DNA of 49,008 nucleotides from a virus. The DNA lies in IMG/VR virus record IMGVR_UViG_3300034682_000282, positions 1-49,008 of that record; one strand, 5' to 3'. This document shows positions 120 to 49,008 of the stretch, piece by piece. The first letter of the stretch is position 1, and each line of letters starts with the position of its first letter. The notes beneath the pieces were generated by a model. The model had not been told where the DNA came from, made no database searches, and saw only the letters and a program-made list of their open reading frames with translations. The position numbers were made by a program, and so were the translations under genes.

Positions 120-3100
120 CGCAACAAATCAAACACCACCTTCGAAAACGCAGCTAGTTTTTTCGGATCTCCCAATAGCTGCATCATCTGGTTCTGCTGA
201 GCTTCACTACTATCTAGGATCGCGTTATCAATAGCTTTTGAGAAATCACCCAACATGGCTTGTTCGGGTGAGTTATTGGCGATTTGGGTCATCACTAACG
301 CATTCTCGCCAACTTTATCGCGGATGGTGAGGGCGTAGTTGACCATGTCAGCATCGGTCAGTTGGTCGGTAATAAACAGCTCGTTGAGGCGAGCGATGAT
401 TTGCGATAAAAATTCTTCTTTTTTATCTTTTGGTCGTGCTGTCCCTAAAGCTTCGTTTGGCTCTAGGTTGTATTCGCCGTTGTTTTCTTTGAGCTGCAAA
501 TTTTGCTGGCGAATTTTCGATACGCGGTAATGGCTTAGCATCACGTTGTTCAGGTCGATATCGTCCTCGTCAACCAAGGTATCGCGCAGCATGGGGCGCA
601 GGTTCCGCGCATACAGGCACAGCTTTTCTAAGTTGGTGTCGTCGTAGTCGACGATTTGCGACATAAACTCGTAGAACCGAACAAAGGTGCCTAAGTCTTT
701 TCTGAAAATTTCCAAGGCATCTTTTTCTTTTTGGCAGTCTTTTAAGCTGTTTTCGGCATTAGCAATCAATACGGCATCGCCAGTCTTTTTGGTGCGTTCA
801 AACATGTCTTTGGCTTGTTTAAACGCGTCTACCGCCGACTTATAGCGCTTTTGCCAACGCTCGACCGCAGGCTTGCAGATATTGGCAATTGCCGCGTTAG
901 ATTTATTACTTTCATAGAAGTAACTGCAAAATTGCTCCACTTCATGCCAGGTGAAAATGCTTTGGCCGCGTAGTTTGTCGTACAGCTGAAAAATCAAATT
1001 TGGATCAGATACATCGGCCAGCTCTGCCGTTTGATAATAAGGCTGGAACGCCGCCAGAATATCTTCGGGGTCGTTGAAAAAATCCAGCACAAAAGTGCCG
1101 GTCTCTGCTTTGCCTGGGTAGGTGCGGTTTAACCGTGACAATGTTTGCACACATTCCACGCCACCGAGCTTTTTGTCCACGTACATGGCGCAAAGTTTCG
1201 GCTGGTCAAAGCCGGTTTGGAACTTGTTGGCGACAATCATCACTTGATAGTCATCGGAATCAAAGGCTTTGCGCATATCGCGGCCTTTGAGGTTGGTGTT
1301 CATGTTGGTTTCGGTGAATTTATCGCCCAGTAACGCGGCTGAATTGGGGTCTTTCTCGCTAAATTCGACTTCCCCCGAGAACGCCACCATGGCGCGAATA
1401 TGCTGGTAACCCTTTTCCGTGATGTATTTATCAAAGCCCAGTTTGTAACGCACCGCTTCTTTGCGCGAGCTGGTGACCACCATGGCTTTGGCTTGGCCGC
1501 CTAACAGCCCCATCACGTTGTCTTTGAAGTGCTCGACAATCACCATCACCTTTTGCGAGATGTTGTGGTCATGCAAACGCACCCATTGGTTTAACTTCAC
1601 CTTGGCCTTTTTGCTATCCACTTCCTGATCGGCAGCATGGATTTTCTGCGCCAGGTTATACGCCACCTTGTAGTTGGTGTAGTTCTTCAGCACATCCAAG
1701 ATAAAGCCTTCTTCGATGGCTTGGCGCATGCTGTATACATGAAATGCAGCTTGTTTATTCGTTTTCGAAGGTGCTTCATCAGGTTTAGGTAAGCGTCCAA
1801 ATAACTCCAACGTTTTGGCTTTTGGCGTGGCGGTAAAGGCAAAATAACTTAAGTTTTTTGAGCTGCGCCGTGCCGCGACCGCAGCAGCAATGATGTCATC
1901 GGCACTGAGTTCTTCATCGTCATCACTGCTTTCTACCATCAACACTTCTTTCAGTTTACGGGCGGTAGAGCCGGTCTGCGACGAATGCGCTTCGTCGGCA
2001 ATAATAGCGTAACGACGCTCTTTGAGTGTCGCACTCTTTTCAATCGCCTTTAACACATGCGGGAAAGTCTGAATGGTCACGATGATAATGGGCTGAGCGC
2101 TTTGCAGGGCGCTGGCCAGCTTTTCTGATTTGGAGCCGTCACCTTCTTCGCGGTTAATCCGCCCGACCACGCCGTCGGTATGTTCAAACTGATAAATGGT
2201 ATCTTGCAGCTGTTCATCCAGCACGGTGCGGTCGGTGACCACAATCACCGAGTGAAATTGCTTGTCGCCTTTGTCGTCATAGAGCGATGACAGCTGATGG
2301 GCAGTCCAGGCAATCGAATTGGACTTACCAGAGCCCGCGCTGTGCTGAATAAGATACCTTTGGCCTGCGCCTTCGGTTTTTGCCGCCTGCAGTAATTTCT
2401 TCACCACATCCCACTGGTGATAACGCGGGAAAATCATGCTTTCTTTTTTGTATTTACGGCCTTCCCAGTCTTCTTTCTCTTCAATGTGTAAATGCACAAA
2501 GCGCGCGAGGATATTTAAAAAATTTTCCGGCACTAACACTTCATTCCACAGGTAATCTGTGGCGTAGCGGGAGATATCTTGCGGGATATCGTTACCCGCC
2601 GCGCCGTCTTTCGTGCCTTTGTTAAAGGGCAAAAAGTAGGTACTCGCGCCGTTCAGCTGGGTGGCCATATACACCTGATATTGGCTCACCGCAAAATGCA
2701 CAATGGCACCGCGCTTAAAGGTCAGCAGCGGCTCAGGCTTTTTAGTGGTGGGGCAAATTGGAAAACGCGTGGTGCGATATTGCTTCAGTGCATTATCCAC
2801 CGATTGTTTGAATTCTGATTTAAGCTCCAGCGTGGCAATCGGCAGGCCGTTGACGAATAGTACCAAATCAATGCGCCAAGCCTTGGCTTTAATGCCGGTT
2901 TCTAACAGCTCCGCGTCGGTTGCCCAAGGGCTATACACCAGCTCTGGCACAATCCGCAGACGGTTTTGCTGATAACGCGCCAAAGTATCGGGGTTTAAAT
3001 CATGCTCGGGTTTAAACTGGCACAACGAAATGCGCACATTGCGGTCACGCAGTTCATGGCGCAGCACACCCAAAGTGCCGTAAGTGCGCGAATCTTTATG

Positions 3101-3358
3101 CGTGGCGTTTGGGTCCGCTTTATTGAGCTGCGCTGCCACCAACTCCAATAACTTCTGCTCGGCATGGTGCGGGTACAGCGCTTTAAATTTTTGCCACTGC
3201 GTATCTTGCGTGTCTTGCACAAACCCCAGTAAGTCTTCTGGGTATAATGCCAGCTCCCGGTTGTAGTTTTCCGCTTTCCCAAGCTTCCAACCGTTGGCCA
3301 GCATCTGCTTGATTATGTCATTTTGAAAAACGCGTTCAGTTGACTGATCAGACATCAT
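83..3358 (-). CDS. hsdR: Type I restriction enzyme subunit R (HsdR), C-terminus altered by an IS end
   Basis: This is the motor and nuclease subunit of a type I restriction-modification complex, which translocates unmodified DNA and cuts it. The 1091-residue product has the family layout. A PD-(D/E)xK nuclease is at the N-terminus, with Asp164 and the Glu-Leu-Lys triplet at 178-180. A superfamily 2 helicase follows, with Walker A (HSAGSGKS, about 339-346) and a DEAH box at 455-458, and then a helical C-terminal region. The gene starts 20 bp after the hsdS stop and is probably co-transcribed with it. The last 12 or so codons (RILAQSEHPFWF) and the stop are encoded by the 23-bp repeats of an IS end, so the native C-terminus has been replaced. 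The loss seems small and both catalytic regions are intact. Confidence 0.93.
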   Translation of the reverse strand: MMSDQSTERVFQNDIIKQMLANGWKLGKAENYNRELALYPEDLLGFVQDTQDTQWQKFKALYPHHAEQKLLELVAAQLNKADPNATHKDSRTYGTLGVLRHELRDRNVRISLCQFKPEHDLNPDTLARYQQNRLRIVPELVYSPWATDAELLETGIKAKAWRIDLVLFVNGLPIATLELKSEFKQSVDNALKQYRTTRFPICPTTKKPEPLLTFKRGAIVHFAVSQYQVYMATQLNGASTYFLPFNKGTKDGAAGNDIPQDISRYATDYLWNEVLVPENFLNILARFVHLHIEEKEDWEGRKYKKESMIFPRYHQWDVVKKLLQAAKTEGAGQRYLIQHSAGSGKSNSIAWTAHQLSSLYDDKGDKQFHSVIVVTDRTVLDEQLQDTIYQFEHTDGVVGRINREEGDGSKSEKLASALQSAQPIIIVTIQTFPHVLKAIEKSATLKERRYAIIADEAHSSQTGSTARKLKEVLMVESSDDDEELSADDIIAAAVAARRSSKNLSYFAFTATPKAKTLELFGRLPKPDEAPSKTNKQAAFHVYSMRQAIEEGFILDVLKNYTNYKVAYNLAQKIHAADQEVDSKKAKVKLNQWVRLHDHNISQKVMVIVEHFKDNVMGLLGGQAKAMVVTSSRKEAVRYKLGFDKYITEKGYQHIRAMVAFSGEVEFSEKDPNSAALLGDKFTETNMNTNLKGRDMRKAFDSDDYQVMIVANKFQTGFDQPKLCAMYVDKKLGGVECVQTLSRLNRTYPGKAETGTFVLDFFNDPEDILAAFQPYYQTAELADVSDPNLIFQLYDKLRGQSIFTWHEVEQFCSYFYESNKSNAAIANICKPAVERWQKRYKSAVDAFKQAKDMFERTKKTGDAVLIANAENSLKDCQKEKDALEIFRKDLGTFVRFYEFMSQIVDYDDTNLEKLCLYARNLRPMLRDTLVDEDDIDLNNVMLSHYRVSKIRQQNLQLKENNGEYNLEPNEALGTARPKDKKEEFLSQIIARLNELFITDQLTDADMVNYALTIRDKVGENALVMTQIANNSPEQAMLGDFSKAIDNAILDSSEAQQNQMMQLLGDPKKLAAFSKVVFDLLRILAQSEHPFWF

Positions 3359-3378
3359 AAATCCCTTTATTTTTGCTT

Positions 3379-4719
3379 TTAGTTGGTTGGGGCTTGCCAG
3401 TTACGCACGTCGATTTTACCAGTGACGGCGGCGGAGATTAGCGCAGTGCGGCGTTCTTGCATTAGGATGATTGCTTTCTCAGCCTTTTTTATCAGACTAT
3501 CAAATTTGATAGTTTCAGCTTCAAGGAAAGTGCAAATATCCTCCTGCTCAGAAAGTGGAGGCACAATTACAGGAAGATTTTCGAACCCCTGCTGATTAAC
3601 ATATACAAGAGTCGCTGCCGTGCCAATCAATTCAAAATATGATTTGGAAATTGAAACAATCTCTCTTAAAAATCCCGCTTTAATTTTTTTAGGTACGAAG
3701 GCTTGTAGTTGCTGATTAATTATCAAATCAACTAGATTTATCGACGCAATACCAAAATTACCAACACAGCTTGCAATCACTGAGCCGGCTCTCAGCTTTT
3801 TCGAGCCTGAAAATTTAGCTGCATCATCAGACACATAATAGTTAGTAGATTCAATGTAAGAGTTTTTCATATCCTCCATGGTAGCCCAAGGAGTACCGCT
3901 TTCTTCGTTTAATTCTGGTTTGTTTCGTTGAGGGACAAATATTTCAGACACATATTTGGCACGGGTAACTTCCCAATGCGCTGGCACTTGCCCCAACCAT
4001 TCCACACCGGAGTCTTTCATCGGGGCATCTGGGTTAAGGCCTTTGGTGACGGCGTGGCTGATCACGGCTTGGAGCTTTTCTTTGAGCAGTTGAACCAACT
4101 GTTGCTGCTTTTCAATCAGCGTGTCGATTTTTGCCGTTTCGTGGTCGAGGAATTGTAAAATTGAAATTTGTTCAGTAACACTAGGTAGCGGCAACCTGAG
4201 GGACTTTACAATACTTGAATTCAGCCCATGCATAATAGAGCCTTTACCGGCAATCTTTATTTGATTTGCAATCTCCGGTGATTCGTCGATTAGGAGTCGA
4301 AAAAAACTTGGTAAAATTTCGTTTTCTTTTACCCGGACTCTTAATAAGTGCGAATCTATAATTCCGATTTCAGCTGTTTTTGGAACAATAATACACTTCC
4401 CACTAGTACCCATCATCGTTATTAATATGTCATTTTCTATAACTTTATAGACAGTCATCTCTGAAAATTTTAACTCGCTAATTCGACGAGAACCTAAGCT
4501 AAAGTCACGCTGAATCACATTTTCTTGACCATAGACGCGTATACCATCATCTACCATGTCTTCTAGCTTTAAAGCACTACCAAATGGACCAATTTTAATA
4601 CCTTCGGCTCCATCTTTAAGTAGATAGCGAACTTGCTTTGCTTTCCATGAGGATGGTATTTGGCCGAACATTTCTATGTTAGAGTCTTTATACTCCAGAT
4701 ATGCCTTATAACGCCCCAT
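3379..4719 (-). CDS. hsdS: Type I restriction-modification specificity subunit (HsdS)
   Basis: HsdS directs methylation and restriction to a bipartite DNA site. The 446-residue protein has the usual two-repeat layout: target recognition domain 1 (about 15-175), a conserved helical spacer beginning with LPLPSVTEQ at 176-184, target recognition domain 2 (about 245-385), and a second conserved helix beginning PPLSEQ at 387. Both recognition domains look complete, so an asymmetric bipartite target is expected. The start codon overlaps the hsdM stop in a TAATG junction, which points to translational coupling. The recognition-domain DNA is more AT-rich than the flanking hsdM and hsdR, as is usual for exchanged specificity modules. 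The target sequence cannot be predicted from this. Confidence 0.92.
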   Translation of the reverse strand: MGRYKAYLEYKDSNIEMFGQIPSSWKAKQVRYLLKDGAEGIKIGPFGSALKLEDMVDDGIRVYGQENVIQRDFSLGSRRISELKFSEMTVYKVIENDILITMMGTSGKCIIVPKTAEIGIIDSHLLRVRVKENEILPSFFRLLIDESPEIANQIKIAGKGSIMHGLNSSIVKSLRLPLPSVTEQISILQFLDHETAKIDTLIEKQQQLVQLLKEKLQAVISHAVTKGLNPDAPMKDSGVEWLGQVPAHWEVTRAKYVSEIFVPQRNKPELNEESGTPWATMEDMKNSYIESTNYYVSDDAAKFSGSKKLRAGSVIASCVGNFGIASINLVDLIINQQLQAFVPKKIKAGFLREIVSISKSYFELIGTAATLVYVNQQGFENLPVIVPPLSEQEDICTFLEAETIKFDSLIKKAEKAIILMQERRTALISAAVTGKIDVRNWQAPTN

Positions 4720-7079
4720 TACGAATGCACCTCTTGCAACAGCGCCAGAATATCCTTGGTCACGGCATCCAAATCGGCATCAATAGCTTCTAACGGGCGC
4801 GGTGGCTGGTACACATAAAAATGGCGGTTAAATGGAATTTCATAACCGACAATACCAATTTCACCGTCTTTAGCATCCCGTTTATCTGGGTTGATCCACG
4901 CGTCTGGCACATGCGGCGCTACTTCTTTTTGGAAATAGGCTTCATTGATTGCATTGACGCTCAGGCTTGGGTTTAGTGGCACGTTCTCGTTGTCGCGCAG
5001 GTCGCCGTCGGTTTCAAATTCCACCACTTTGCCTTGGTAGCTGAACTTGCCGTATAACGGGTTATGTTCAGGATGAGCGGTACGCGGCGGCGTCATGGAT
5101 GACGAGGAGCCGCGGGCTGCATCTTTTAGAACTTTTCTGACAATAGGTTCAGCATCTGGGTTTTTCCAGGTAATGGCATCCAGTAATTGCTTTTGCTCTT
5201 TGGCATCAAGTTTTGCCGCTGCGTTTTTTTGGGCATTGCTTAAGATTTTATCAAACTCGTTAAAGTCGTCATGCTGTGCATCCCCAATAACCGCTCGTAG
5301 CTTTTGCGCTTTTTCCATCAAGGCTTTTTGCGAAAGCCAAGTGCTTGCGTCTAACAGGTCTTTGATTTGTTTTTCTTTTAAATCGGCAAAGTCTTTTTTG
5401 ATTTTGCTACGAATAGCCTCTTCATGGCTGGCCAATTGCCCGTAAGTGGCTTCAGTCCACTCATCGCCAATATGCTGGTACACCCATTCCATCACTGGTT
5501 TCAGTGCGCCTGGTGCAAAACGTAACGAGGCAATGGCTTCATCGGTGAACATGGCAGATAAGCGCAGTGGCCGCTCAATAGTAATGCGGCGGTAGCCAAA
5601 TTCATGGGTGGCGAATATTTTGCTGGCGAAGGTCTTCGGTACGTCTGCTTTGGGTGTGGCCGACTGACGGCCGCGATTGCTTTTTACATCAGCGGCTTTA
5701 TCTAAACTGTAGGCATCGACCGCTTCGAAATTACCAAAGGTGCGGGTGATGGTGGCGATATCGCTGTCATCCATCAGATTACGCTTCGAGCCTAACGATT
5801 TACGCATTTTGCCGCATAAATCCGCGCCGTTAATCAGCTGGACTTTTCCTTTGCGCTCGCTGGCTTTTTTATTAGAAAGCACCCAGACATAAGTTGAAAT
5901 GCCGGTGTTGTAGAACATATCGGTTGGCAGCGCGACAATTGCTTCCAGCAAATCGGCTTCTAGGATGTAGCGGCGAATTTCGCTTTCACCGCTACCGGCA
6001 CCGCCAGTAAAAAGCGGTGAGCCATTGAGGATAATGCCTATACGGCCACCACCGTCGGCGGCATCACGCAGCTTGCTAATTAGGTGCATTAAAAACAGCA
6101 ACGAACCATCTGACACCCGCGGTAAACCGGCACCAAAGCGACCATCAAAGCCTTTTTCGTTATGTTCTTTTAAAATGTCGCCTTCGATTTTTTTCCAATC
6201 CACACCAAACGGCGGGTTGGACAGCATGTAGTCAAATTTTTCGCTATAAAGGTGGTCGTTGGACAGCGTATTACCCAACTTAATGTTGCTGACTTCCTGA
6301 CCTTTAATCAACATGTCGGCTTTACAGATGGCGTAACTTTCTGGGTTTAATTCTTGGCCATAAGCACGCATCACCGCTTGCGGGTTTAGCTCATGCACGT
6401 ATTCCATACCCGAAGATAAAAATCCGCCGGTACCCGCTGTTGGGTCATAAATGGTGCGGATGATGCCAGGCTTTTGTAAGGCGTCATCATCTTCCATAAA
6501 GACCAAGGACGTGGTCAGGCGCACAATATCGCGTGGGGTGAAGTGCTCACCGGCGGTTTCATTGGAACTTTCCGCAAAGCGGCGGATTAACTCTTCAAAC
6601 AGCAAGCCCATATCATGGTTGGAAATGACCTTGGGGCTTAAATCGATGGTTCGGACTTTTTGCACCACCTTGTACAGCAGGTTGGCGTCGTTGAGCAGAC
6701 CGACAAATTCCATAAATTTGAAGTGCTCAAAAATCTCGCGTGCGTCTTTCGAAAAGCCTTGAAGATAGTTTTCCAAGTTGGCTTTGATGCCGGATTCACC
6801 CAGCTTGGATAAATCCATTTTCGAAGTGTTGAAGAACGATAAACCGTTAGTTGCATGCAGCAGCATTTTTTCCTGTGCTTCTTCTGGCAGGTTCATGGCC
6901 TGTATTTCTTGGAATTTAGCCAGTACCGCTTCTTTGGTTGGTGCTAGAACACACTCCAAGCGGCGCAATAAACAAAACGGCAGAATGATGCGACCATATT
7001 GGCTTTGTTTAAAATCACCACGAAGTAAGTCGGCAATAGCCCAGGATTCGGCGGCTAGGTTGTTTGAAGATTGAGACAT
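4719..7079 (-). CDS. hsdM: Type I DNA adenine methyltransferase subunit (HsdM), intact copy
   Basis: This is the N6-adenine methyltransferase subunit that protects host DNA and forms the core complex with HsdS. Of 786 residues, the N-terminal helical domain includes GEHFTPR (177-183), the SAM-binding motif I is DPTAGTGGF at 212-220, and the catalytic motif IV is NPPF at 288-291. The C-terminal third ends with the normal HsdM tail ([16 protein letters not shown] and following). It is the first gene of the hsdM-hsdS-hsdR operon and overlaps hsdS by one base. A second, closely related copy lies just upstream and is split by the prophage. The two copies share long nearly identical DNA stretches up to the GIVGYEI segment and then diverge completely. 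Confidence 0.94.
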
Positions 7080-7204
7080 AAGAGTAATTTTTTACCAAAG
7101 TTGTGTTGCCGCATCATAGGCATGCTTTTATCAGTCTGCCTTATGGAGCTTTATCATTTGAAGCTAAAATAGTACCTGAAGCAGCTTGCACGAGCCATGT
7201 TTTA
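7080..7204 (-). promoter_or_regulatory. Upstream region of the intact hsdM, resembling that of the split hsdM-like gene
   Basis: These 125 bp separate the second hsdM-like gene from the intact hsdM and should carry the promoter of the hsdMSR operon. Two blocks recur upstream of the split copy at 47624-47740: one next to the start codon (an AT-rich stretch then ACCAAAGTTG) and one further upstream (AATAGTACCTGAAG, near 7168-7181 here and 47713-47726 there). The shared blocks suggest that the upstream region was duplicated with the gene. I could not assign -35 and -10 boxes with confidence. Confidence 0.45.
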
Positions 7205-9854
7205 CTAAGGAAAAAGAACGCTACTAGGCTTAAATTTCCTTTCAGTGGTACATGGGTATGGGCAGACATACATTAATTGGGGAGATTCGCCATTCGTCTC
7301 TTTATCTGCAGAATTGTAAAAGTAAAATGCCATAAACCCTGTTTCTTCTGTGACCTCTTCAAAAAGGACAAGTTCTAATACAGGGAAAAAATTACCAGAA
7401 TCTTTGTCATTCAAGGACCCCCAGTAAAGTTTCTCGGAAATTAGAGGATGCTTTGTAATAGCTTTAGCTATGTTGCTAGGATTAATAGCAAGCCCGCTTA
7501 GGATCTCAAGTTCATTGTCAAAAGATATGCCGTCATATGTTGACCTCAAAGGCCTGACAAGCGTGTAGTTTGAGAAGTTTTCGTAAGTGAGATCTTTGAA
7601 TCGTTCATTTATGTCTTCAAGTTTTTTAATCGTTTCGCTAATAATAGATTTGGTTGTCAATCCTCGGTGCGCGATATCATTTCTAATCTTTGTTACTTCC
7701 TCCAAGACACCACCTATTGACTCGTTCATGACCCACCTAAGTGCAGGTGGAATGGAAGACGAGTAGTCTCTACGAAGTTCATTCAACCTCTGATAACCAA
7801 ATGCCATTGTCAAGCTATTGAACTTAGGGGGATTGAATTTCAGCAATTTTTTTTGCTGTTCAATAGACAAACTTCCTAATATCGTTGCGACTAAAAACAC
7901 CCCTAAGAACTCGTAGAATCGGCAATAGAATTCGCATTTTTCTTTATCCGCAAACGTTGCTGTGGCTTGATTCCAAAGAATAGCTAAGGGCACAGGAAGC
8001 TTAGTTTCAAAAGACTCCTCATATCTTTCTGATGCTCCAATATAAGATGTTATTTTACGTAATGATTTATGTGGATTAGTAAAGACATCATCTTTAAGCA
8101 ACCGTATGTCATCAACTAACGACTCGGCAAGTTTAAAAAATTCAATAATTGAATTTTGCTCCTCAATAGAGGGTGTGTCTATTTTTGCAGCTCTGAGTCG
8201 CTCCAAATTGTAGGATGGGTAATTGAGCGGGGGGAATTCATTCTTCAGCCAGGTTTTCCCTTGAACAGAACTAATAAACAGATTGAAATACTCAACCTTA
8301 AGTATGTTCTCATCAATGTCAAACGCTGAAAGTTGGTCCTCACCATTACGCACAGATACCATTTTGGCCGTTATCCGGTCTATTACATAAGCTCCAGCTC
8401 TATGGGGTTTAATAATCGATCTGAGTTTTATTTGACGATAGATTGACGAGCTATTTTCGCGAAGTTTGTTTTTAATATTAATTTCATAACCGACAATGCC
8501 TATATCCTTGTCTTTGCTGTCGCGTTTGTCTGGGTTTATCCAGGCGTCTCGCATACTCGGCTGTATTTCCATTTTGAAAAAAGCTTCATTGGTTTCGTTT
8601 ACTGTAGAGCTTGGATTGAACGGTATATTCTCGTTGTCGCGCTGATCAATATCAGCTTCAAATTCAACCACCTCGCCTCTGTAGGTGAACTTGCCGTAAA
8701 TCGGATCTTCTGCTCCTTGAACTATGTTTTTTACAACAGGTTCGGCCGTAGGGTTTTTCCAGGTAATAGCATCCAGCAACTGCTTTTTCTCTTTGACATC
8801 GAGTTTTGCTGCTGCGGTTTTTTGGGCTTGAGCGAGAATTTTATCAAACTCGTTAAAGTCGTCATGTTGGGCATCCCCAATCACAGTACGTAGCTTTTGA
8901 GCTTTTTCCATTAGGGCTTTTTGCGAAAGCCAAGTGCCTGCGTCTAACAGATCTTTGATTTGTTTTTCTTTTAAATCGGCAAAGTCTTTTTTGATTTTGC
9001 TGCGAATAGCCTCTTCATGTCTGGCCAATTGCCCGTAAGTGGCTTCGGTCCATCCATCGCCAATATTCTGATAAACCCATTCCATCACAGGCTTCAGTGC
9101 GCCTGGGGCAAAACGTAACGAGGCAATGGCTTCAGCGGTAAACTTGGTAGATAAGCGCAGCGGCCGCTCGATGGTAATGCGGCGGTAGCCAAATTCATGG
9201 GTGGCGAATATTTTGCTGGCAAAGGTCTTCGGTACGTCTACCTTGGGTGTGGCGGACTGACGGCCGCGGTTGTTTTTAACATCGGCGACTTTATCTAAAC
9301 TGTAGGCGTCGACCGCTTCAAAATTACCAAAGGTGCGGGTGATGGTGGCGATGTCATCGTCATCCATCACGTTGCGCTTGGAGCCTAATGACTTTCGCAT
9401 TTTACTGCAAAGGTCGGTTCCGTTAATCAGTTGCACCTTGCCTTTTCGCTCGGCGGATTTTTTATTCGATAACACCCAAATGTAAGTGGCTATACCGGTG
9501 TTGTAGAACATATCGGTTGGCAGCGCGACAATGGCTTCCAGCAAATCGGCCTCTAAGATGTAGCGGCGAATTTCGCTTTCACCGCTACCGGCGCCGCCAG
9601 TATAAAGTGGCGAGCCATTAAGGATAATGCCAATACGACCGCCACCGTCGGCAGCATCACGCAGCTTGCTAATCAGGTGCATTAAAAACAGCAACGAACC
9701 ATCCGATACCCTTGGTAAACCTGCGCCAAAGCGGCCAGCGAAACCTTTTTCGTTATGCTCTTTTAAGATCTCACTATTAATGTTTTGCCAATAGGCGCCA
9801 AATGGCGGGTTAGAAAGCATGTAGTCAAACTTATCGCTGTACAGGTGGTCGTTA
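7205..9854 (-). pseudogene. C-terminal part of a split HsdM / HsdS-like / HEPN-like fusion gene
   Basis: This is the downstream part of a second hsdM-like gene cut by the prophage. From the first internal Met at 9820 it encodes 871 residues. The methyltransferase part (about 1-447, with NPPF at 4-7) is nearly identical to the intact HsdM. After GIVGYEI the sequence changes completely. Residues about 450-580 resemble the end of an HsdS half (the [17 protein letters not shown] segment at 539-555). Residues about 600-871 form a helical domain with [10 protein letters not shown], an R-x4-H motif (Arg713, His718) as in HEPN ribonucleases. This 3' half is much more AT-rich than the methyltransferase part. 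The prophage has removed motif I and the native start, so the fragment should not be a working methyltransferase, though an internal start might express the C-terminal domain. Confidence 0.85.
9849..9854. repeat. Target-site duplication, left copy (TCGTTA)
   Basis: TCGTTA directly precedes the prophage terminus, and the same six bases directly follow the other terminus at 46800-46805. Joining the flanks through one copy restores the second hsdM-like frame. With TG...CA element ends the duplication is 6 bp. A 5-bp duplication (CGTTA), as in Mu, would fit if the element had one extra base at its other end. Confidence 0.88.
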
Positions 9855-9945
9855 TGAAGCGGCGCGCGAAAATTAAAGCATGAATGCTGAGAAATTTATA
9901 GTTTTTGAGTTTTTCAAATAGCGTAAGGATATTTCAAATAAAGAC
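9855..9945. other. Prophage terminus equivalent to the Mu right end (attR-type transposase sites)
   Basis: The terminus TGAAGCGGCGCGCGAAAA matches the outermost part of the Mu right end, as I recall it, at 17 of 18 positions. Further AT-rich stretches with TTTTTCAAATA and ATTTCAAATAAAG follow inward and could be inner transposase sites. Late genes are transcribed toward this end, as in Mu. Confidence 0.75.
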
Positions 9946-9950
9946 AGAGA

Positions 9951-9969
9951 AGCAGGGTTAAGCCCTGCT
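9951..9969. terminator. Hairpin at the end of the leftward late genes
   Basis: AGCAGGG and CCCTGCT pair in a 7-bp stem around a 5-nt loop that contains the stop codon of the last phage gene. On the + strand the stem is followed by TTTCTTTTT, giving a good terminator for rightward transcription. On the - strand the tail is weaker (TCTCTGTCTTT). It could work in both directions near the prophage edge. Confidence 0.55.
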
Positions 9970-10749
9970 TTCTTTTTGGTGTGGTAAAACGTCAGCTGAA
10001 CAAACGTATGAGGCAGCATCAAGCAATGCTGTGATTGCTAGACTGTGGTCTTGTAATGTCTCATCTTCGCGGTGTAATAACTCTCTGGCTGACTCTAACA
10101 GCGATAAAGCATAAGCCTGGCGTTCAGGGTCAGCAGAGTACGCCAGTTCCTCCAGTGTTGATATACGCTGCTTATGGTTGCTCTGAGTAAAACTCAAGGC
10201 GAACACATTCTTTACCCAACCCTTTAACGCATCCATTGCTGTTTTACCTCTCAGACTAACTGGCATCAGGAAAGCCAATACCATTAAAAAATTGTCTATG
10301 TTGCTCTGTGCAGAATACCAAGTCCACAGCCACCATTTATCGTTGCGCCAACTGCTGTTTGCAGGGCCAAAGTCGTTTAAACCAATCCAGTTTTGGTCGA
10401 CGTGCATTGTCAAATTGAAGAAGGCTTCGCCGCACATTAATACAACTATACATTTAGCAGGCCACAGCATGCGCAAATTAAAGGAAATGTGACCTATTAA
10501 AACACCGCCAGCTATTGCCAAGCAGGCGGTGGTCCAGATGTGGTATTGAATACCGACCTGGGCTGAGTACTTCAAACCCGACAGCATTTGAGCTGACGCA
10601 TAATGGTTGACCAAAAAAACAACCAACACGATTAAAGCGGTTAGTGAGTTTGATCGCAAGTCTCTGCGCATGACCATACCAAAAATCCACACAGCACAAA
10701 AACCTATTATCCATATAGCGTCAAGCAAGAATGCAGTCAGATTATCCAT
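9958..10749 (-). CDS. Membrane protein encoded next to the prophage end, unknown function
   Basis: The 263-residue protein has about four or five hydrophobic segments in its first 190 residues (for example near 5-26, 37-55, 72-90, 98-112 and 153-165), then a soluble helical C-terminal region of about 70 residues. I recognise no family. It is the last gene before the phage terminus, where Mu-like phages often carry accessory genes such as mom, but it has no likeness to Mom. It starts directly after a small secreted-protein gene and may be expressed with it in the lysogen. A role in superinfection exclusion or host-envelope change would fit its location but is only an inference. Confidence 0.7.
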   Translation of the reverse strand: MDNLTAFLLDAIWIIGFCAVWIFGMVMRRDLRSNSLTALIVLVVFLVNHYASAQMLSGLKYSAQVGIQYHIWTTACLAIAGGVLIGHISFNLRMLWPAKCIVVLMCGEAFFNLTMHVDQNWIGLNDFGPANSSWRNDKWWLWTWYSAQSNIDNFLMVLAFLMPVSLRGKTAMDALKGWVKNVFALSFTQSNHKQRISTLEELAYSADPERQAYALSLLESARELLHREDETLQDHSLAITALLDAASYVCSADVLPHQKESRA

Positions 10750-10996: not shown

Positions 10997-11062
10997 ACAA
11001 AAAATACGACGAAACTCTGATATTGATGTTACGTCGCGGTGATATTGGCAAATAAGTAACGT

Positions 11063-11079
11063 TTACATAGGTCCTCCTT
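11063..11079 (-). other. Strong ribosome binding site followed by a start-stop minigene (ATG TAA)
   Basis: Just downstream of the 122-residue tail gene, AAGGAGGA (11072-11079) is followed by ATG at 11066-11068 and directly by TAA. No longer frame begins here. It is either a chance remnant of a lost gene or a minimal start-stop element. The surrounding stretch, 10955-11083, holds no gene. Confidence 0.4.
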
Positions 11080-11083
11080 AGGG

Positions 11084-11452
11084 TTACTCACCAATAGATA
11101 TATTGATACCAGGAAAAGAAAACTGTTGGTCAGTGGGCAGGTGAGCGTTGATTTGTGCCTCTGTCACCATCCATTCACCGCTGGCATCAAAAACCACTTC
11201 ACGCTCAGCGACTCCATCGACAAATTCAAAATGGAATGTTTTGCCTGGTGTGGCAAATAACCCCGCCAATGGAACAGCAAATATGTCGTTCAACGGCAAA
11301 CTGCACTCAACACGAAATACTGCCGGAGTGTTTTTATTGCCTACAAATCGCGGCACTATTTGACCATTAACAGATACAGCCATTGTGCCAATATACTGCG
11401 TTGTTTGCTGCGGCTGTAACAGCCCAGTGTTCAATCCACCTATCACTGCCAT
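11084..11452 (-). CDS. Putative small tail protein downstream of the receptor-binding protein
   Basis: The 122-residue product has no signal peptide or membrane segment, and alternating hydrophobic and polar residues suggest beta structure. It overlaps the end of the Asp-box tail fibre gene by one base and is the last gene of the continuous late cluster. That position suggests a fibre tip component or fibre assembly chaperone. I do not recognise a family. The next genes toward the phage end are separated by a gap of about 130 bp. Confidence 0.6.
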   Translation of the reverse strand: MAVIGGLNTGLLQPQQTTQYIGTMAVSVNGQIVPRFVGNKNTPAVFRVECSLPLNDIFAVPLAGLFATPGKTFHFEFVDGVAEREVVFDASGEWMVTEAQINAHLPTDQQFSFPGINISIGE

Positions 11453-43914: not shown

Positions 43915-44187
43915 ATGAAAGTTATGAAAAATCAGTACGGCTATATGGACGGTTTAGGCAAAGCCCTCCTGGTGATTGTTATCGTTTTAGTGGTCATTGC
44001 TGCTTTGCTTGGCGCAGCCATTGGCGCTTTTGCCACTGGCCTGCCGTCAGAACTCACCGAAATGAAGGAACACTGCGAATCGGATCTGCCACGGGATGAA
44101 GTTTGCGTATTTGTCGCAATACCTGAGCAGCAAGACGCCTTCTGCCCTCAAGCCGAAGTATTTAACCAGGCAGAGGTGCTGAAATGA
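43915..44187 (+). CDS. Small single-pass membrane protein
   Basis: The 90-residue protein has one strong transmembrane segment (about 16-42, rich in Val, Ile, Leu and Ala) and a C-terminal domain of about 45 residues with three cysteines, probably outside the cytoplasm. AGGAG lies 9 bases upstream. It overlaps the next gene by 4 bp. An early-expressed membrane protein could act in superinfection exclusion, which is an inference only. Confidence 0.6.
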   Translation: MKVMKNQYGYMDGLGKALLVIVIVLVVIAALLGAAIGAFATGLPSELTEMKEHCESDLPRDEVCVFVAIPEQQDAFCPQAEVFNQAEVLK

Positions 44188-44849
44188 AAACAGTTATTAA
44201 CGCAGTGGCCGATCTGGTGACTTGGGGCAGTGTATTTGATTACCTTTTCTGGAATGAAAAAGAAGGCTGGTTTTACTCAACTCCAGAGCAATCTGCACCA
44301 CAGCGAGCAGTGTGCTCCAGGGAACAATTTGAAGTAGAGAAACGCCGTCAAAATCCATTGTTTCAGTGGATTTCATGGCATCAGCCAACCGAAGACCATC
44401 GCCCACTTACATACCCACCAAACAAAGCAATTATGGGCTGGTGGTGCAGTGGTTACAGTGGCCGTGATGCAATCATTTGTGCACTGGTCGACGCATCAGA
44501 CGAGCCTACCGCGCAGGCTGCTGTTTTAAAGGATTGGCCTGAAGCAGAAAGATGGCGTTTTTGTGAAGCCCGCGATAACACGAACTTAGGCGATAGGTTT
44601 CCGCTAAAAGCTTGGATGCTGGAGCGTATGCCAGCCACTCCTGCAAAGCCTGCTATAGCTGAGCCAATAAAAGTGGTTTGTCGGTTTAGAAGCGGCACGT
44701 ACATCACAAACAAGGTCAATGGAAAGCAAGCTTCTAATACTGCAGGAGCTGACGGCGCTGTAAGCGCGCTGGGTAGAAAGCTGCTGCCCGATCAGGAATT
44801 CGCTGTAACTAATGTTGATGGTGATAACTGGTTAATCATCCCCCAATAA
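44184..44849 (+). CDS. Early protein, unknown function, ending at the first hammerhead
   Basis: The 221-residue protein is rich in Trp (WGSVFDYLFWNEKEGWFY, then QWISWHQPTEDHRP and MGWWCSGYSGRDAI). The C-terminal 60 residues look like a separate beta domain (SALGRKLLPDQEFAVTNVDG). No family is recognised. Its TAA stop (44847-44849) is followed directly by the first base of the ribozyme at 44850, so cleavage removes the message downstream of this gene. Confidence 0.6.
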   Translation: MKTVINAVADLVTWGSVFDYLFWNEKEGWFYSTPEQSAPQRAVCSREQFEVEKRRQNPLFQWISWHQPTEDHRPLTYPPNKAIMGWWCSGYSGRDAIICALVDASDEPTAQAAVLKDWPEAERWRFCEARDNTNLGDRFPLKAWMLERMPATPAKPAIAEPIKVVCRFRSGTYITNKVNGKQASNTAGADGAVSALGRKLLPDQEFAVTNVDGDNWLIIPQ

Positions 44850-44907
44850 GCGAAACGCCCAGCAGTATGGGGCGTCTGCCAGTGGTGGTTCACTGGTACT
44901 GATGAGC
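44850..44907 (+). ncRNA. Hammerhead-type self-cleaving ribozyme, copy 1
   Basis: In order, the RNA has GC, GAAA (44852-44855), stem III CGCCC/GGGCG (44856-44860 with 44870-44874, 9-nt loop) and UC. Stem I UGCCAGU/ACUGGUA follows (44877-44883 with 44892-44898, 8-nt loop), then CUGAUGA (44899-44905) and GC. This is the full hammerhead core in the permuted order with stem II open (type II). Cleavage is expected after C44876. Stem II is only a GC/GC 2-bp helix. Loop I (GGUU, 44887-44890) can pair with AGCC at 44908-44911 beside stem II, a plausible stabilising contact. It starts right after the stop codon of the upstream gene. Confidence 0.85.
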
Positions 44908-44936
44908 AGCCAATAGTTAAACGAGTGGAGTTGAAT

Positions 44937-45218
44937 ATGAGTAACTTAGATTTACCGAATCTTGAACTGAAAGAAAGCGGTATTACGAATGAGGATGGTG
45001 CCCAACTGATCCTGCAATGCGAAGCCTGGTTTCAAGCCAGGATTGACCTTCTGAATGAAACTGCTGAGCACATGAAGAAGGCTGAAACTGTTGATTTGAA
45101 TGGTACGGAAATAACTGACCCTAAAGTTATTAAAGGTATGAGATATGGCTTCCTTACTGCTGTCTCGTTACTTGGAAAATTTCCACTGAAACTTGGTGGC
45201 CTAGCAGAAACAGAATAA
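44937..45218 (+). CDS. 93-residue protein enclosed between two hammerhead ribozymes
   Basis: The start at 44937 follows GGAG by 6 bases. The product is small, acidic and mostly helical (GAQLILQCEAWFQARIDLLN, then VIKGMRYGFLTAVSLLGKF). I recognise no family. Its stop (45216-45218) directly abuts the second ribozyme, and its 5' leader begins with the 3' half of the first. It is therefore the only gene on the 362-nt RNA that double cleavage would release. Confidence 0.65.
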   Translation: MSNLDLPNLELKESGITNEDGAQLILQCEAWFQARIDLLNETAEHMKKAETVDLNGTEITDPKVIKGMRYGFLTAVSLLGKFPLKLGGLAETE

Positions 45219-45269
45219 GCGAAACGCCCAAGGGCGTCTATCCAGCGTTGTGGCTGGGTACTGATGAGC
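45219..45269 (+). ncRNA. Hammerhead-type self-cleaving ribozyme, copy 2
   Basis: It has the same order as copy 1: GC, GAAA (45221-45224), stem III CGCCC/GGGCG (45225-45229 with 45232-45236, 2-nt loop), UC, stem I UAUCCAGC/GCUGGGUA (45239-45246 with 45253-45260, 6-nt loop), CUGAUGA (45261-45267) and GC. Cleavage is expected after C45238. Stem I differs from copy 1 at several paired positions with pairing kept. Loop I (UUGU, 45248-45251) can pair with GCAA at 45271-45274, the equivalent contact to copy 1. Its CUGAUGA contains an ATG in frame with gemA. Confidence 0.87.
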
Positions 45270-45287
45270 AGCAAGAGGTTTTACCAA

Positions 45288-45842
45288 GTGAGCGCAGATA
45301 AAAAACGACTGATTGGCCTGATCCATGTAGCCAAAACTGACCTGGGCATGGCGGAAGAAAGCTACCGTGCCCATTTGCAGCACTATGGCCAACATAACAG
45401 CTGCAAAGACATGAATTTAAGCCAGTTGATCAAGGTGATGGACGGTATGACGGCTTTGGGCTTTAAATCCAAGCCAGCCAAGGTTGGTAGACCAAAATCA
45501 GGCCGTTTAAGCCCTAAAACACCTATAAATGCAGACGAGCGCAGTGTGATCCGTGCCATTTGGATATTCATGCACCGCAACGGCTTTATTAAAGATGGTA
45601 CCGAAACCGCGTTAAACGACTTCGTGAAGCGCCAGACCGCTGAACTGAACAACGGTATAGGTATTAATGAGGTGGAATGGTTGCAGCAGGATCAGGCTAT
45701 TCCGGTGCTGGAATCACTTAAAAAGTGGTGCCGCCGCTGCATGTTCAACGCACTGCAGAATCAAGGCTATTCATTGTTCCCTCAGATCAGCTATTTCCAG
45801 CTTTTAGCTAAGTGGGAAGAGATTCACGGAGCCAAACCATGA
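45288..45842 (+). CDS. gemA: GemA-like regulatory protein (Mu gp16, DUF1018)
   Basis: The protein resembles Mu GemA/gp16: KKRLIGLIHVAKTDLGMAEE, then SYRAHLQHYG and LSQLIKVMDGMTALGFK are family features. In Mu it affects host gene expression and DNA topology. The GTG at 45288 (184 residues) is preferred because AGAGG lies 9 bases upstream and downstream of the ribozyme. An in-frame ATG at 45264 lies within the ribozyme's CUGAUGA and has no good binding site. It overlaps the next gene (ATGA). Ribozyme cleavage leaves its mRNA with a 5'-hydroxyl and a structured leader. Confidence 0.82.
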   Translation: MSADKKRLIGLIHVAKTDLGMAEESYRAHLQHYGQHNSCKDMNLSQLIKVMDGMTALGFKSKPAKVGRPKSGRLSPKTPINADERSVIRAIWIFMHRNGFIKDGTETALNDFVKRQTAELNNGIGINEVEWLQQDQAIPVLESLKKWCRRCMFNALQNQGYSLFPQISYFQLLAKWEEIHGAKP

Positions 45843-46333
45843 AGTTGTTCCGATGCCCAGTCTGCCATTCAAGCATTCACCTGGATCAGCTGGTCGCTGA
45901 CGAAGCTGGCCGCCAGCTGCTGGGCGTCATGGCAAAACTGAATTACCGCATGGGCCCGGCACTGGTTTCATACCTGGCTATGTTCCGGCCACCAAAACAA
46001 GACTTGAGCAACGCCAAAGCATTAAACCTGGCCACAGACACTCTGGCTTTAACAACCAACCACGCGGTATTGGCAGAAGCCCTGCAGGATACCGTCAGTT
46101 CGCTGCAGGCAAGCCGCCAGAACGCTCCTGCAAAGCAGCTAACCAACCACAACTACTTAAAGGCAGTACTGGCGGCCAAGTTAGGCGATGCAGCAGTAAA
46201 GGCCACTGGTACCACTGTTGAAATCAAACACCAGGCAGCAGTTTCTAAAGAGGCTGAGCAGGCCGCATTTGAAGAACGCATGAAGTTATTAGGCGGTAAT
46301 ATTTACGGGAAGGTGCCAAATGACAGCAACTAA
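45839..46333 (+). CDS. Early protein between gemA and the Mor-like gene
   Basis: The start at 45839 overlaps the gemA stop (ATGA), with GGAG upstream. The 164-residue product starts with a CxxC pair (FRCPVCHSSIHLDQL) and an Ala-rich helical middle. The C-terminal part includes NHNYLKAVLAAKLGDA. Small proteins in this slot are known in Mu-like phages, without a firm function. It overlaps the Mor-like gene by 14 bp. Confidence 0.65.
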   Translation: MKLFRCPVCHSSIHLDQLVADEAGRQLLGVMAKLNYRMGPALVSYLAMFRPPKQDLSNAKALNLATDTLALTTNHAVLAEALQDTVSSLQASRQNAPAKQLTNHNYLKAVLAAKLGDAAVKATGTTVEIKHQAAVSKEAEQAAFEERMKLLGGNIYGKVPNDSN

Positions 46334-46685
46334 AAAAACCGGTATGAGCGCGCTACGTAGCGAGCTGTTGGACGATATTGTGACCCACGTATCAACCATA
46401 TTGGAAGACAACGGTATTGCTGAAGACTTGGCAGAACAGAGCGCCATTGCAGCAGCCGACTTTTTGGCCGAGCATTGGGGCGGTCAGTTGATTTGTTTCC
46501 CTAAAAACTTCCTTTTCAAACTGGCCCAGCGCGACTTGCTGATATATGATGAATTCAACGGACGCAACCACGCCCAGTTAGCTAAAAAGTGGCATATGTC
46601 TGTTAGAGGTATTTACAAGTTGGTCAATCGGGTTCAAAAACGAGTAGTAGCAGAGATTCAACCGGATTTATTCGCAGAAGAGTAG
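46320..46685 (+). CDS. mor: Mor/C-type middle or late transcription activator
   Basis: The 121-residue protein fits the Mor family: a dimerisation region followed by AEHWGGQLICFPKNF, FNGRNHAQLAKKWHMSVRGI and YKLVNRV, the last two forming the helix-turn-helix. Mu has separate Mor and C proteins. Only one is visible here, and it is the last early gene. It is the natural candidate to activate the late promoters marked by the 25-bp repeats at 27327 and 35459. Confidence 0.85.
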   Translation: MTATKKTGMSALRSELLDDIVTHVSTILEDNGIAEDLAEQSAIAAADFLAEHWGGQLICFPKNFLFKLAQRDLLIYDEFNGRNHAQLAKKWHMSVRGIYKLVNRVQKRVVAEIQPDLFAEE

Positions 46686-46799
46686 TTGTTGCGTATATTG
46701 AAAATGTTTTTCATTTTTTATTTCGTTTGATCCTTCTATATCCCCTTTGATCCCATAATTATCTTACTTCTTTGGTGTTATTTATCTCACTCTCTTTCA
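46686..46799. other. Prophage terminus beside the early operon (left-end equivalent) with weak terminator
   Basis: The last 114 bp before the junction are AT-rich and hold no gene. TGAAAA/TTTTCA (about 46699-46713) followed by TTTTTT may be a weak terminator for the early operon. GATCC and AAGGGG-type repeats (TTTGATCC at 46727 and 46747 on the + strand) could be transposase sites. The end reads TGAAAGAGAG inward, so it shares TGAA with the other terminus. Confidence 0.6.
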
Positions 46800-46805
46800 T
46801 CGTTA
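46800..46805. repeat. Target-site duplication, right copy (TCGTTA)
   Basis: Identical to 9849-9854, directly after the prophage end. Confidence 0.88.
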
Positions 46806-47623
46806 GAAAGCGTATTACCCAGTTTAATGTTGCTAATTTCCAGGCCTTTAATCAGCATGTCGGCTTTACAGATAGCGTAACTTTCTGGATTTAATTCTTG
46901 GCCATAGGCGCACATCACCGCCTGTGGATTTAGCTCATGCACGTATTTCATACCAGCCGATAAAAAGCCGCCAGTGCCAGCTGTTGGGTCATAAATGGTG
47001 CGGGTGACGCCAGGTTTTTGTAAGGCGTCATCGTCTTCCATAAACACCAAAGACGTTGTCAGGCACACGATATCGCGCGGCGTGAGGTGATCGCCGGCGG
47101 TTTCATTGGAACTTTCCGCAAAGCGGCGGATCAGCTCTTCAAACATCAAGCTCATGTCATGGTTGGAAATGGCTGTAGGGCTTAAATCAATGGTGCGGAC
47201 TTTTTGCACCACTTCATATAGCAGGTTGGCTTCGTTGAGCAAGCCAACAAATTCCATAAATTTGAAGTGTTCAAAAATTTCACGCACTTCTTTCGAGAAG
47301 CCCTGTAGGTAGTTTTCTAGGTTGGCTTTGATGTCCGATTTACCAAGCTTGGATAAATCCATTTTCGAGGTGTTGAAGAACGATAAGCCGTTAGTGGCGC
47401 GCAGCAGCATTTTTTCCTGCGCTTCTTCTGGCAGGTTCATGGCATGTATTTCTTGGAATTTAGCCAGTACCGCATCTTTGGTAGGTGCTAACACACACTC
47501 TAAGCGGCGCAATAAACAGAACGGCAGAATAATGCGACCATATTGGCTTTGTCTAAAATAACCACGAAGCAGGTCGGCAATCGCCCAAGATTCAGCGACG
47601 AGGTTGTTTGAAGAGTGAGACAT
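46800..47623 (-). pseudogene. N-terminal part of the split HsdM-like fusion gene
   Basis: The fragment encodes 275 native residues, starting [20 protein letters not shown], then runs into the prophage for three more codons and a stop. It is very close to the intact HsdM over the same length and retains motif I (DPTAGTGGF, about 212-220), but motif IV lies on the other fragment. It differs from the intact copy at a conserved spot, [12 protein letters not shown] in place of [12 protein letters not shown]. Joined with the other part it gives about 1155 residues. Alone it should have no methyltransferase activity. It keeps its start and its upstream region. Confidence 0.92.
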
Positions 47624-47937
47624 AAGAAAAATTTTCCACCAAAGTTGGTTCGCAAACCATGGCAGTCCTGAAAAGTTTATGCTCTGCCATGCGTTTTAAG
47701 ATGTTTCTGGAATAGTACCTGAAGATTAGGCGATGATGCTACGGGAATGAAATATTTTGGGGCTTGGAGTGTACTTAAAGCTATCATCACCATAGATTTT
47801 CTGACTAAACGTTTTCGATTTTAGTGGTGATATGTACATTTGCGACTGGGCCTGTATTATCAGTTTTTGTGTGTTAAGTCTTATTTGGTATTAATAGTGA
47901 GCCTTTTGTTGATTGAATCTTCAGTACAAGGAGTGGT
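47624..47937. promoter_or_regulatory. Divergent intergenic region between the split hsdM-like gene and the HNH gene
   Basis: These 314 bp hold no gene. The part next to the hsdM-like start shares blocks with the upstream region of the intact hsdM (AATAGTACCTGAAG near 47713). A 7-bp inverted pair, ATCACCA and TGGTGAT, lies in the middle. The right part is AT-rich, with an AAGGAG binding site before the HNH gene. Divergent promoters are expected, but I could not fix their boxes. Confidence 0.5.
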
Positions 47938-48666
47938 ATGGCGTCGAAAATTACCAAGGATCAATATTCTGCAGCATTTAGTGTGGCCATCGATTTCTAT
48001 CATGGGCGTTTAACCCTAACAACTGGCTCTGATCATCTCAATAAAGTACATAAACTTAATCTCGCGTCTGCGCGGGATTATATGTATGACTTTAAGTGCA
48101 TGATGAATGGGGAAGTATTTCACCGAGCAATGAGTGCCGATGCTATTGATTATTTTTTAAGTGAAATCCAGTCGCAATTCGGCTTAGACGTTTTAAAAAA
48201 TGCTGTCAAAGCAACTGAGCTGCACATCACTTATTACGAGGCGCTAGACAGGGGAAAGCTCAATAAACTCCGTGGTGTCGTTGAAAAACACAAGAAAAAA
48301 TTCGACGCAGTTACTAATTACAGCGACCTTGAACGAGTTTTTCAAAAGCAAGTGTCTGATTCCTTGAACATTACGTCAGAAGCACGCCGTCAGCGTTTGC
48401 AAAGTGCGTCAACCAAGCCAAAACAGATGCAAGTTACGACGACAGTGTTTATCCGAAATCCTGACGTAGTTGCGCAGGTATTACTTAACGCAAATGGCAT
48501 TTGTGAAGCTTGCTTGCAACTTGCACCATTTATTAAGAAGAGTGATGGCTTACCCTATTTGGAAGTGCACCACAAAAAACGCTTGGCTGATGGCGGTGAA
48601 GACTCGGTGGAAAATGCTATTGCGCTTTGCCCGAACTGTCATCGGAAGTTTCATTTCGGGGTATGA
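47938..48666 (+). CDS. HNH endonuclease (McrA-like)
   Basis: The 242-residue protein has a C-terminal HNH nuclease domain with zinc-binding pairs Cys189-x2-Cys192 and Cys231-x2-Cys234. Its catalytic region is LEVHHKKRLADGGEDSVENA (His211, His212, Asn226), and CPNCHRKFH ends the protein. The N-terminal 160 residues are helical and of no clear family, perhaps recognising modified or specific DNA. It reads away from the hsd genes. Proteins of this shape in defence loci are often modification-dependent or stand-alone restriction enzymes. An AAGGAG site precedes the ATG. Confidence 0.82.
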   Translation: MASKITKDQYSAAFSVAIDFYHGRLTLTTGSDHLNKVHKLNLASARDYMYDFKCMMNGEVFHRAMSADAIDYFLSEIQSQFGLDVLKNAVKATELHITYYEALDRGKLNKLRGVVEKHKKKFDAVTNYSDLERVFQKQVSDSLNITSEARRQRLQSASTKPKQMQVTTTVFIRNPDVVAQVLLNANGICEACLQLAPFIKKSDGLPYLEVHHKKRLADGGEDSVENAIALCPNCHRKFHFGV

Positions 48667-49008
48667 AAGTAGCCAGTGTTTTAATGATCTTGTAATCAGT
48701 TAACGCCTTTAAATTTGCGAGCCCCCCAGTGCAGATTTTGCCGTGAACGTCCGCTTTCAGTGAAAAGCTGCGATTTGGCATCATTCAGAACCAATATCCG
48801 CTCTTGGCACAAAGTGACGATTAAGCTAACGTCCCTATACCACCAGCCAGCCGACTCAACCTATCTGGCTGTTTTTCAGGCAAACCTGCACTGAGGCACA
48901 CAGCGTGGCATCATCTGCAACACTGCTTTATTTCTACTACACCCTTGCCAGAGCCTGCTCGTTCATAAACACTATAGCCACTGTTTTTAAAGGACTATCG
49001 GCGCTTTA
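48667..49008. other. Stretch without a recognisable gene
   Basis: No open frame of credible length and no RNA gene is seen in these 342 bp. A short - strand stretch at about 48692-48724 reads HWGARKFKGVN then a stop and could be the decayed end of a gene, but nothing upstream of it supports this. Confidence 0.5.

Follow-up and report, generated by a model that had tools for sequence, protein, structure and literature searches.

Type II hammerhead ribozymes often flank single genes or short blocks of genes in prophages, an arrangement that, according to Perreault et al. in 2011 (PMC3088659), might give rise to unit mRNAs. The prophage arrays that they tested cleave in vitro, and one of them also cleaves in E. 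coli, while 4 of the 18 consensus hammerheads assayed were inactive; circular or spliced RNAs were considered but not detected. In this class, stem II often has no more than two base pairs, and loop I forms a pseudoknot with the tail past stem II that keeps stems I and II side by side (PMC3088659). Hammerheads and twisters are most strongly associated with the genes of Mu-like phages, for reasons that are unknown (PMC10085705), and the role of prokaryotic hammerheads has been called open in a review (PMC6155905).

The stretch of DNA analysed here, which we term the window, is a 49-kb virus record (49,008 nucleotides) containing two such hammerheads around one gene. Hammerheads that frame a single prophage gene are an arrangement already known and not new. 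The original prediction presented the pair itself as the observation; the pair is real, but pairs in prophages had already been described (PMC3088659), and what the prediction missed is the comparative evidence, new here, which suggests that the ribozymes are joints for gene exchange. A literature search for hammerheads as recombination joints, which covered open-licence papers, found none.

Two type II hammerheads in a Mu-like early region

The genes around the pair form a Mu-like early region in the order DUF3164, several small unknowns, a 221-aa gene, a 93-aa gene, GemA, an unknown and Mor (Pfam and PHROG). The features of the locus are as follows, 5' and 3' halves being separated by the predicted cleavage sites.

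44184..44849, plus strand: upstream early gene of 221 aa (ORF), its UAA stop abutting copy 1
44848-44915, plus strand: type II hammerhead ribozyme copy 1 (Rfam RF02276, 64.7 bits, E 3e-11; covariance model R1, 67.5 bits)
44850..44876, plus strand: 5' half of copy 1, read from the sequence as stem II strand GC, GAAA, stem III hairpin and GUC
44877..44912, plus strand: 3' half of copy 1, read from the sequence as stem I hairpin, CUGAUGA, stem II strand GC and pseudoknot tail AGCCA
44877..45238, plus strand: cleavage-to-cleavage unit of 362 nt (half-ribozyme, gene, half-ribozyme), bounded by the predicted cuts and absent from the closest relative (L108, which is one contig with L125 and L153)
44937..45218, plus strand: cassette gene of 93 codons (ORF; phrog_12368), Shine-Dalgarno sequence GGAG at 44927-44930
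45217-45277, plus strand: type II hammerhead ribozyme copy 2 (Rfam RF02276, 64.7 bits, E 3e-11; covariance model R1, 62.7 bits)
45219..45238, plus strand: 5' half of copy 2, read from the sequence, with a short stem III
45239..45274, plus strand: 3' half of copy 2, read from the sequence as stem I, CUGAUGA and the pseudoknot UUGU 45248-45251:GCAA 45271-45274
45288..45842, plus strand: gemA (Mu gp16-like), likely with a GTG start, Shine-Dalgarno sequence AAGAGG at 45273-45278 (Pfam GemA, E 7.8e-31)
46320..46685, plus strand: mor, the late transcription activator, at the end of the Mu-like early region (Pfam Mor, E 3.2e-34)

Both copies lie on the coding strand, exceed the curated gathering score of RF02276 (37 bits) and cover the whole of that model (positions 1-66 of 66). 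Their core elements occur in the permuted order and are all intact: GAAA at 44852-44855 in copy 1 and 45221-45224 in copy 2, GUC (a GUH triplet) with predicted cleavage after 44876 and after 45238, and CUGAUGA at 44899-44905 and 45261-45267. Stems I and III are closed by loops, and stem II is open. In the rest of the 49-kb window, an Rfam scan gave no match above any cut-off and no third hammerhead. The single-strand folding energies of the two copies (z of -0.8 and -1.2) are unremarkable and uninformative. Taken together, the Rfam and covariance-model scores, the covarying pairs and published work support both elements as full-length type II hammerheads, for which self-cleavage is predicted.

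Much of what had been read from the letters of the window alone thus stands: there are two type II hammerheads with permuted GAAA, GUC and CUGAUGA on the strand of the early genes; each begins directly at the upstream stop codon (UAA at 44847-44849 and 45216-45218); and cuts after 44876 and 45238 would release a 362-nt RNA carrying only the 93-codon gene, the coordinates being confirmed and the processing predicted. The covariance search with type II models that had been proposed as a check matches both copies and finds type II copies in related phage loci. Stem III, described as identical in both, agrees in its stem bases but not in its loops (9 nt in copy 1, a 4-nt hairpin loop in copy 2), and stem I, described as fully paired over 7 and 8 bp, is 8-9 bp long. 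The 2-bp stem II, which had been regarded as the weak point, is no such thing, two pairs being common in the class and a loop I-tail pseudoknot being present in both copies.

This pseudoknot is UGGU:GCCA in copy 1, where the tail AGCCA (44908-44912) pairs with the loop UGGUU (44886-44890), and UUGU:GCAA in copy 2; the replacement of a G-C pair in the former by a U-A pair in the latter is a compensatory change. A loop I-tail pairing of at least 4 bp is found in 104 of 119 distinct loop/tail combinations, whereas 500 shuffles averaged 83 and never exceeded 92. The stems covary too: 79 cells have a compensatory change as against 19.4 in shuffles, 97.3% of cells are paired, and both sides have changed in 12 of 15 stem pairs, as counted in 28 sequences picked for diversity. 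In 24 of these 28, stem II is G-C/C-G, and its inner pair is invariant. Since the pseudoknot would hold the fold, a stem II of 2 bp is normal for the class.

The fit of the ribozymes between genes is general. Of 177 distinct hammerheads, taken from 118 viral loci, 171 follow the stop of an ORF of 40 or more codons at a distance of no more than 32 nt; in 112 the stop ends 1-4 nt ahead of GAAA, and in 60 the gap is exactly 2 nt, as in both window copies, the expectation for random positions being about 0.6% per distance. The downstream ribosome binding site follows closely behind the pseudoknot tail. The ribozyme takes up the whole gap between stop codon and ribosome binding site, and its cleavage site falls between the stop and the Shine-Dalgarno sequence; after the predicted cut, one mRNA would therefore end in stem III and the following one would begin with stem I.

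The Shine-Dalgarno sequence of gemA overlaps the pseudoknot tail of copy 2, and the most likely start of this gene is the GTG at 45288, which is preferred because L108 retains the GTG and the Shine-Dalgarno sequence with no hammerhead core alongside; an ATG within the core of copy 2 was rejected as the start on the same grounds. The 221-aa gene gave no match in Pfam and PHROG searches. Close relatives of the 93-aa gene are absent from the viral contigs and phage records searched; the PHROG profile alone ties it firmly to a distant phage (L008), the direct comparison with the L008 protein being weak, and there phrog_12368 again lies between two hammerheads.

DNA similarity between the window and L108 stops at about 46.8 kb, just past mor. 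The remaining part of the window (46683-49008), judged by eye from translations, has a minus-strand gene for an HsdM-like methylase and also encodes an HNH-like protein (47938-48666), and it is possibly host DNA or a foreign insert.

Half-ribozyme exchange and homology breaks upstream of gemA

The closest relative, L108, whose GemA is 95% identical to that of the window, has a single hammerhead at this place. The 5' half of this hammerhead differs by one base from the 5' half of window copy 1 (96% identity), and its 3' half is identical to the 3' half of window copy 2. L108 lacks the 93-codon gene and has a different small gene between its hammerhead and gemA. Its hammerhead thus combines the 5' half of copy 1 with the 3' half of copy 2, and the window, relative to L108, holds one additional cleavage-to-cleavage unit. 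The small gene of L108, which is unrelated, is flanked on both sides by CAGCAAGAGGT (11031-11366), the first copy being part of the hammerhead tail and the second standing ahead of gemA, as if these repeats were a second kind of joint.

Exchange of halves is also found between L126/L139 and L135/L145/L148, between L152 and L015, and between L128 and L130. In the comparisons of the window with L108 and of L152 with L015, the inserted unit extends from cleavage site to cleavage site within a few bases; in L171 and L216, homology breaks in the CUGAUGA core or in the tail, away from the cleavage site. Most of the units with two hammerheads hold one small ORF, whose end is at the second ribozyme; the cargoes are mostly unrelated to one another (a DNA-binding protein family, phrog_421, phrog_5671, phrog_12368 and others). 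Nearly all the copies found have intact cores, while the stems vary with compensatory changes; the original prediction had named relatives that keep the sequence without the core residues as the finding that would speak against it, and the reverse is seen.

The first two sets of loci were picked by their hammerhead sequence, which biases the identities of the halves in those sets. As a control for this bias, 77 loci were fetched by the GemA profile alone (GemA was not found in genome_contigs). Type II hammerheads occur in 36 of these loci, with 46 copies, every one of which is upstream of gemA and on the same strand, and they are present in all 21 loci whose GemA reaches 48% identity or more across most of its length. 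A first breakpoint test, on the loci picked by hammerhead, was discarded as biased and redone with the GemA-picked loci, where the effect grew.

In the GemA-picked loci, junctions were compared between pairs of loci sharing at least one flank. Homology is broken at 89% of hammerhead junctions on average and at 53% of other junctions, and the within-locus excess is at the hammerheads in 31 of 32 informative loci and in the opposite direction in 0, figures that suggest a strong tendency and are to be read as such rather than as an exact probability, because the loci are few and related and the pair counts are not independent events; the viral contigs are partly fragments. This tendency perhaps rests on seven or more separate events. 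Between loci that share the upstream gene alone, identity in the 5' half is 93% (background 72%); between loci that share the downstream gene alone it is down to 76%, with 90% in the tail (background 61%) and 85% in stem I (background 73%).

One explanation is that the hammerheads serve RNA processing only, that is, that they cut the operon or stabilise its mRNA, with the exchange nearby being ordinary phage mosaicism. Natural hammerheads in phage operons are indeed known to cut (PMC3088659), and the broken state of about half the other junctions reveals that gene exchange upstream of gemA is general. However, hammerhead junctions break more than their neighbours in the same loci, and many of the breaks are inside the ribozyme, where they part its two halves, which makes this explanation rather unlikely, if still worth keeping in mind.

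Several other loci deserve mention. By far the densest arrays seen are those of L038 (IMGVR_UViG_2974780946_000001, 1137-10061, minus strand), a GC-rich phage contig in which about 9 kb hold thirteen type II copies that pass the Rfam cut-off, and of L030 and L069, with seven or more each. A decayed hammerhead with the core CUGAUUA (L042:5302-5369) lies about 320 nt upstream of an intact copy. Unannotated type II hammerheads are present upstream of gemA in Shewanella phage vB_SspS_MuM16-1 (L122, 2970-3042), Alteromonadaceae phage B23 (L123, 3007-3071) and Vibrio phage vB-Vv-ZX4290 (L124, 3631-3701). Prophage-like loci with a hammerhead 3' half of the same type exist in the cultured marine bacteria Neptunomonas japonica (L149), Amphritea atlantica (L150) and Photobacterium sanguinicancri (L147), which could serve as living test systems.

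Probable punctuation of the operon and joints for cassettes

We consider it probable that these hammerheads are punctuation ribozymes, dividing the mRNA of the operon into pieces of one gene each, and that they are at the same time joints at which one-gene cassettes recombine. Each fills the whole gap from the stop codon of one early gene to the ribosome binding site of the next. Co-transcriptional cuts after 44876 and 45238 would split the polycistronic early mRNA, leaving the 93-codon gene on its own 362-nt mRNA with a pseudoknotted stem I at the 5' end and a stem III hairpin at the 3' end, and giving the gemA mRNA its own hairpin-capped 5' end; stem I at the new 5' end might still be pseudoknotted. 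By analogy with RiboJ (PMC8794103), such hairpin ends may protect or insulate the mRNAs.

The same architecture could account for the exchange. The two halves of a type II hammerhead would meet through the core and the almost invariant stem II (G-C/G-C) alone; as every other contact is inside one half, any 5' half should be compatible with any 3' half after recombination. With halves that are interchangeable, the ribozymes could also act as joints where single-gene cassettes enter or leave the operon. Recombination would occur in or between halves, and the insertion of a half-gene-half unit at a resident hammerhead would rebuild two working ribozymes around the new gene, which would thus automatically be cut from the operon mRNA. 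The simplest route would be DNA recombination across short conserved stretches, helped by selection against recombinants with broken stems. It speaks against joints that genes are exchanged generally in the region upstream of gemA, where the hammerheads may merely sit because exchange is tolerated, and that some breaks, those of L171 and L216, are in the CUGAUGA core or tail and not at the cleavage site; against cutting stands the inactivity of 4 of the 18 consensus hammerheads assayed in 2011.

Another possibility, put forward in the original prediction, is that the 362-nt RNA freed by both cuts becomes a circular mRNA, its two ends making up a composite hammerhead that ligates them as in viroid-like RNAs. 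This is chemically possible: the halves that the freed RNA retains match each other (GC/GC stem II and a full core), and in a folding model of the 362-nt RNA both terminal hairpins form. Nevertheless, the ends would be joined by just two G-C pairs and the core, with stem I, the pseudoknot and stem III each internal to one half; comparable prophage arrays in which circular or spliced products were sought yielded none (PMC3088659); and a circle would leave the exchange of halves at the DNA level unexplained. The composite hammerhead found no support here, and we regard a circular mRNA as very improbable. Even less credible is a transfer by RNA, in which a released half-gene-half RNA would be ligated into another cleaved hammerhead and copied back to DNA. 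Such a route would put insertions exactly at the cleavage site, as the units of the window/L108 and L152/L015 pairs fit within a few bases, but the breaks of L171 and L216 in the core or tail are those expected for DNA recombination over short conserved stretches, and strict insertion at the cleavage site was rejected as a general rule; nor was a reverse transcriptase noticed. That the hammerheads are inactive, decaying relics, kept as stem-loops or by chance, can practically be dismissed, since the broken core CUGAUUA in one L042 copy stands against the intact cores and covarying stems of nearly all the others.

Returning to ribozymes that both punctuate and join, we propose, more tentatively and with somewhat less conviction than doubt, that Mu-like phages carry self-punctuating cassettes (3' half, gene, 5' half), in which the unit of RNA processing would be the unit of gene exchange. 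If true, this would explain the clustering of hammerheads in Mu-like phages, and half-ribozymes that travel with their neighbour gene would give a concrete and checkable reason for the position as well as the clustering. The window and L108, with 95% identical GemA proteins and respectively with and without the cassette, make the joint idea directly testable.

Comparison with known systems

The closest system is that of the type II hammerheads themselves (RF02276, PMC3088659), which are alike in the permuted order, the loops closing stems I and III, the very few pairs of stem II, the loop I-tail pseudoknot, the phage or prophage context, and the pairs flanking single genes. No structural difference is apparent; the stop-codon fit and the exchange of halves between phages are not described in the accessible part of that paper. 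In the A. tumefaciens ardA triple (PMC3088659), several hammerheads likewise cut a long phage transcript into gene-sized pieces, there in vitro and in E. coli. The genes and host differ, and the inventory was noted there as not constant, whereas here the presence or absence of a unit is traced between close relatives.

The PeSL promoter-terminator cassettes of T4-type phages (Arbiol 2010 and Comeau 2014, via PMC4503421) likewise have a short conserved boundary element with an RNA function as a joint for small early genes, and, as with PeSLs, the boundary motif here is common to phages while the genes on either side differ. PeSLs consist of a promoter and a stem-loop; the joint here would be a ribozyme that can be split into two reusable halves.

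Synthetic insulators of the RiboJ type (PMC8794103) also have a hammerhead directly ahead of the ribosome binding site, where it removes upstream RNA and leaves a 5' hairpin, an action that is predicted here. They were engineered from a plant satellite RNA, whereas the hammerheads here are natural, type II and in mid-operon, and would be a natural counterpart to these tools of synthetic biology. Finally, in retrozymes and viroid-like circular RNAs (PMC4918200, PMC7229834), two hammerhead copies likewise bracket an excisable unit, excision being predicted here. Those hammerheads are type I or III and flank non-coding units that spread via RNA circles, whereas in the window type II hammerheads flank a coding gene, and a circle would not be needed.
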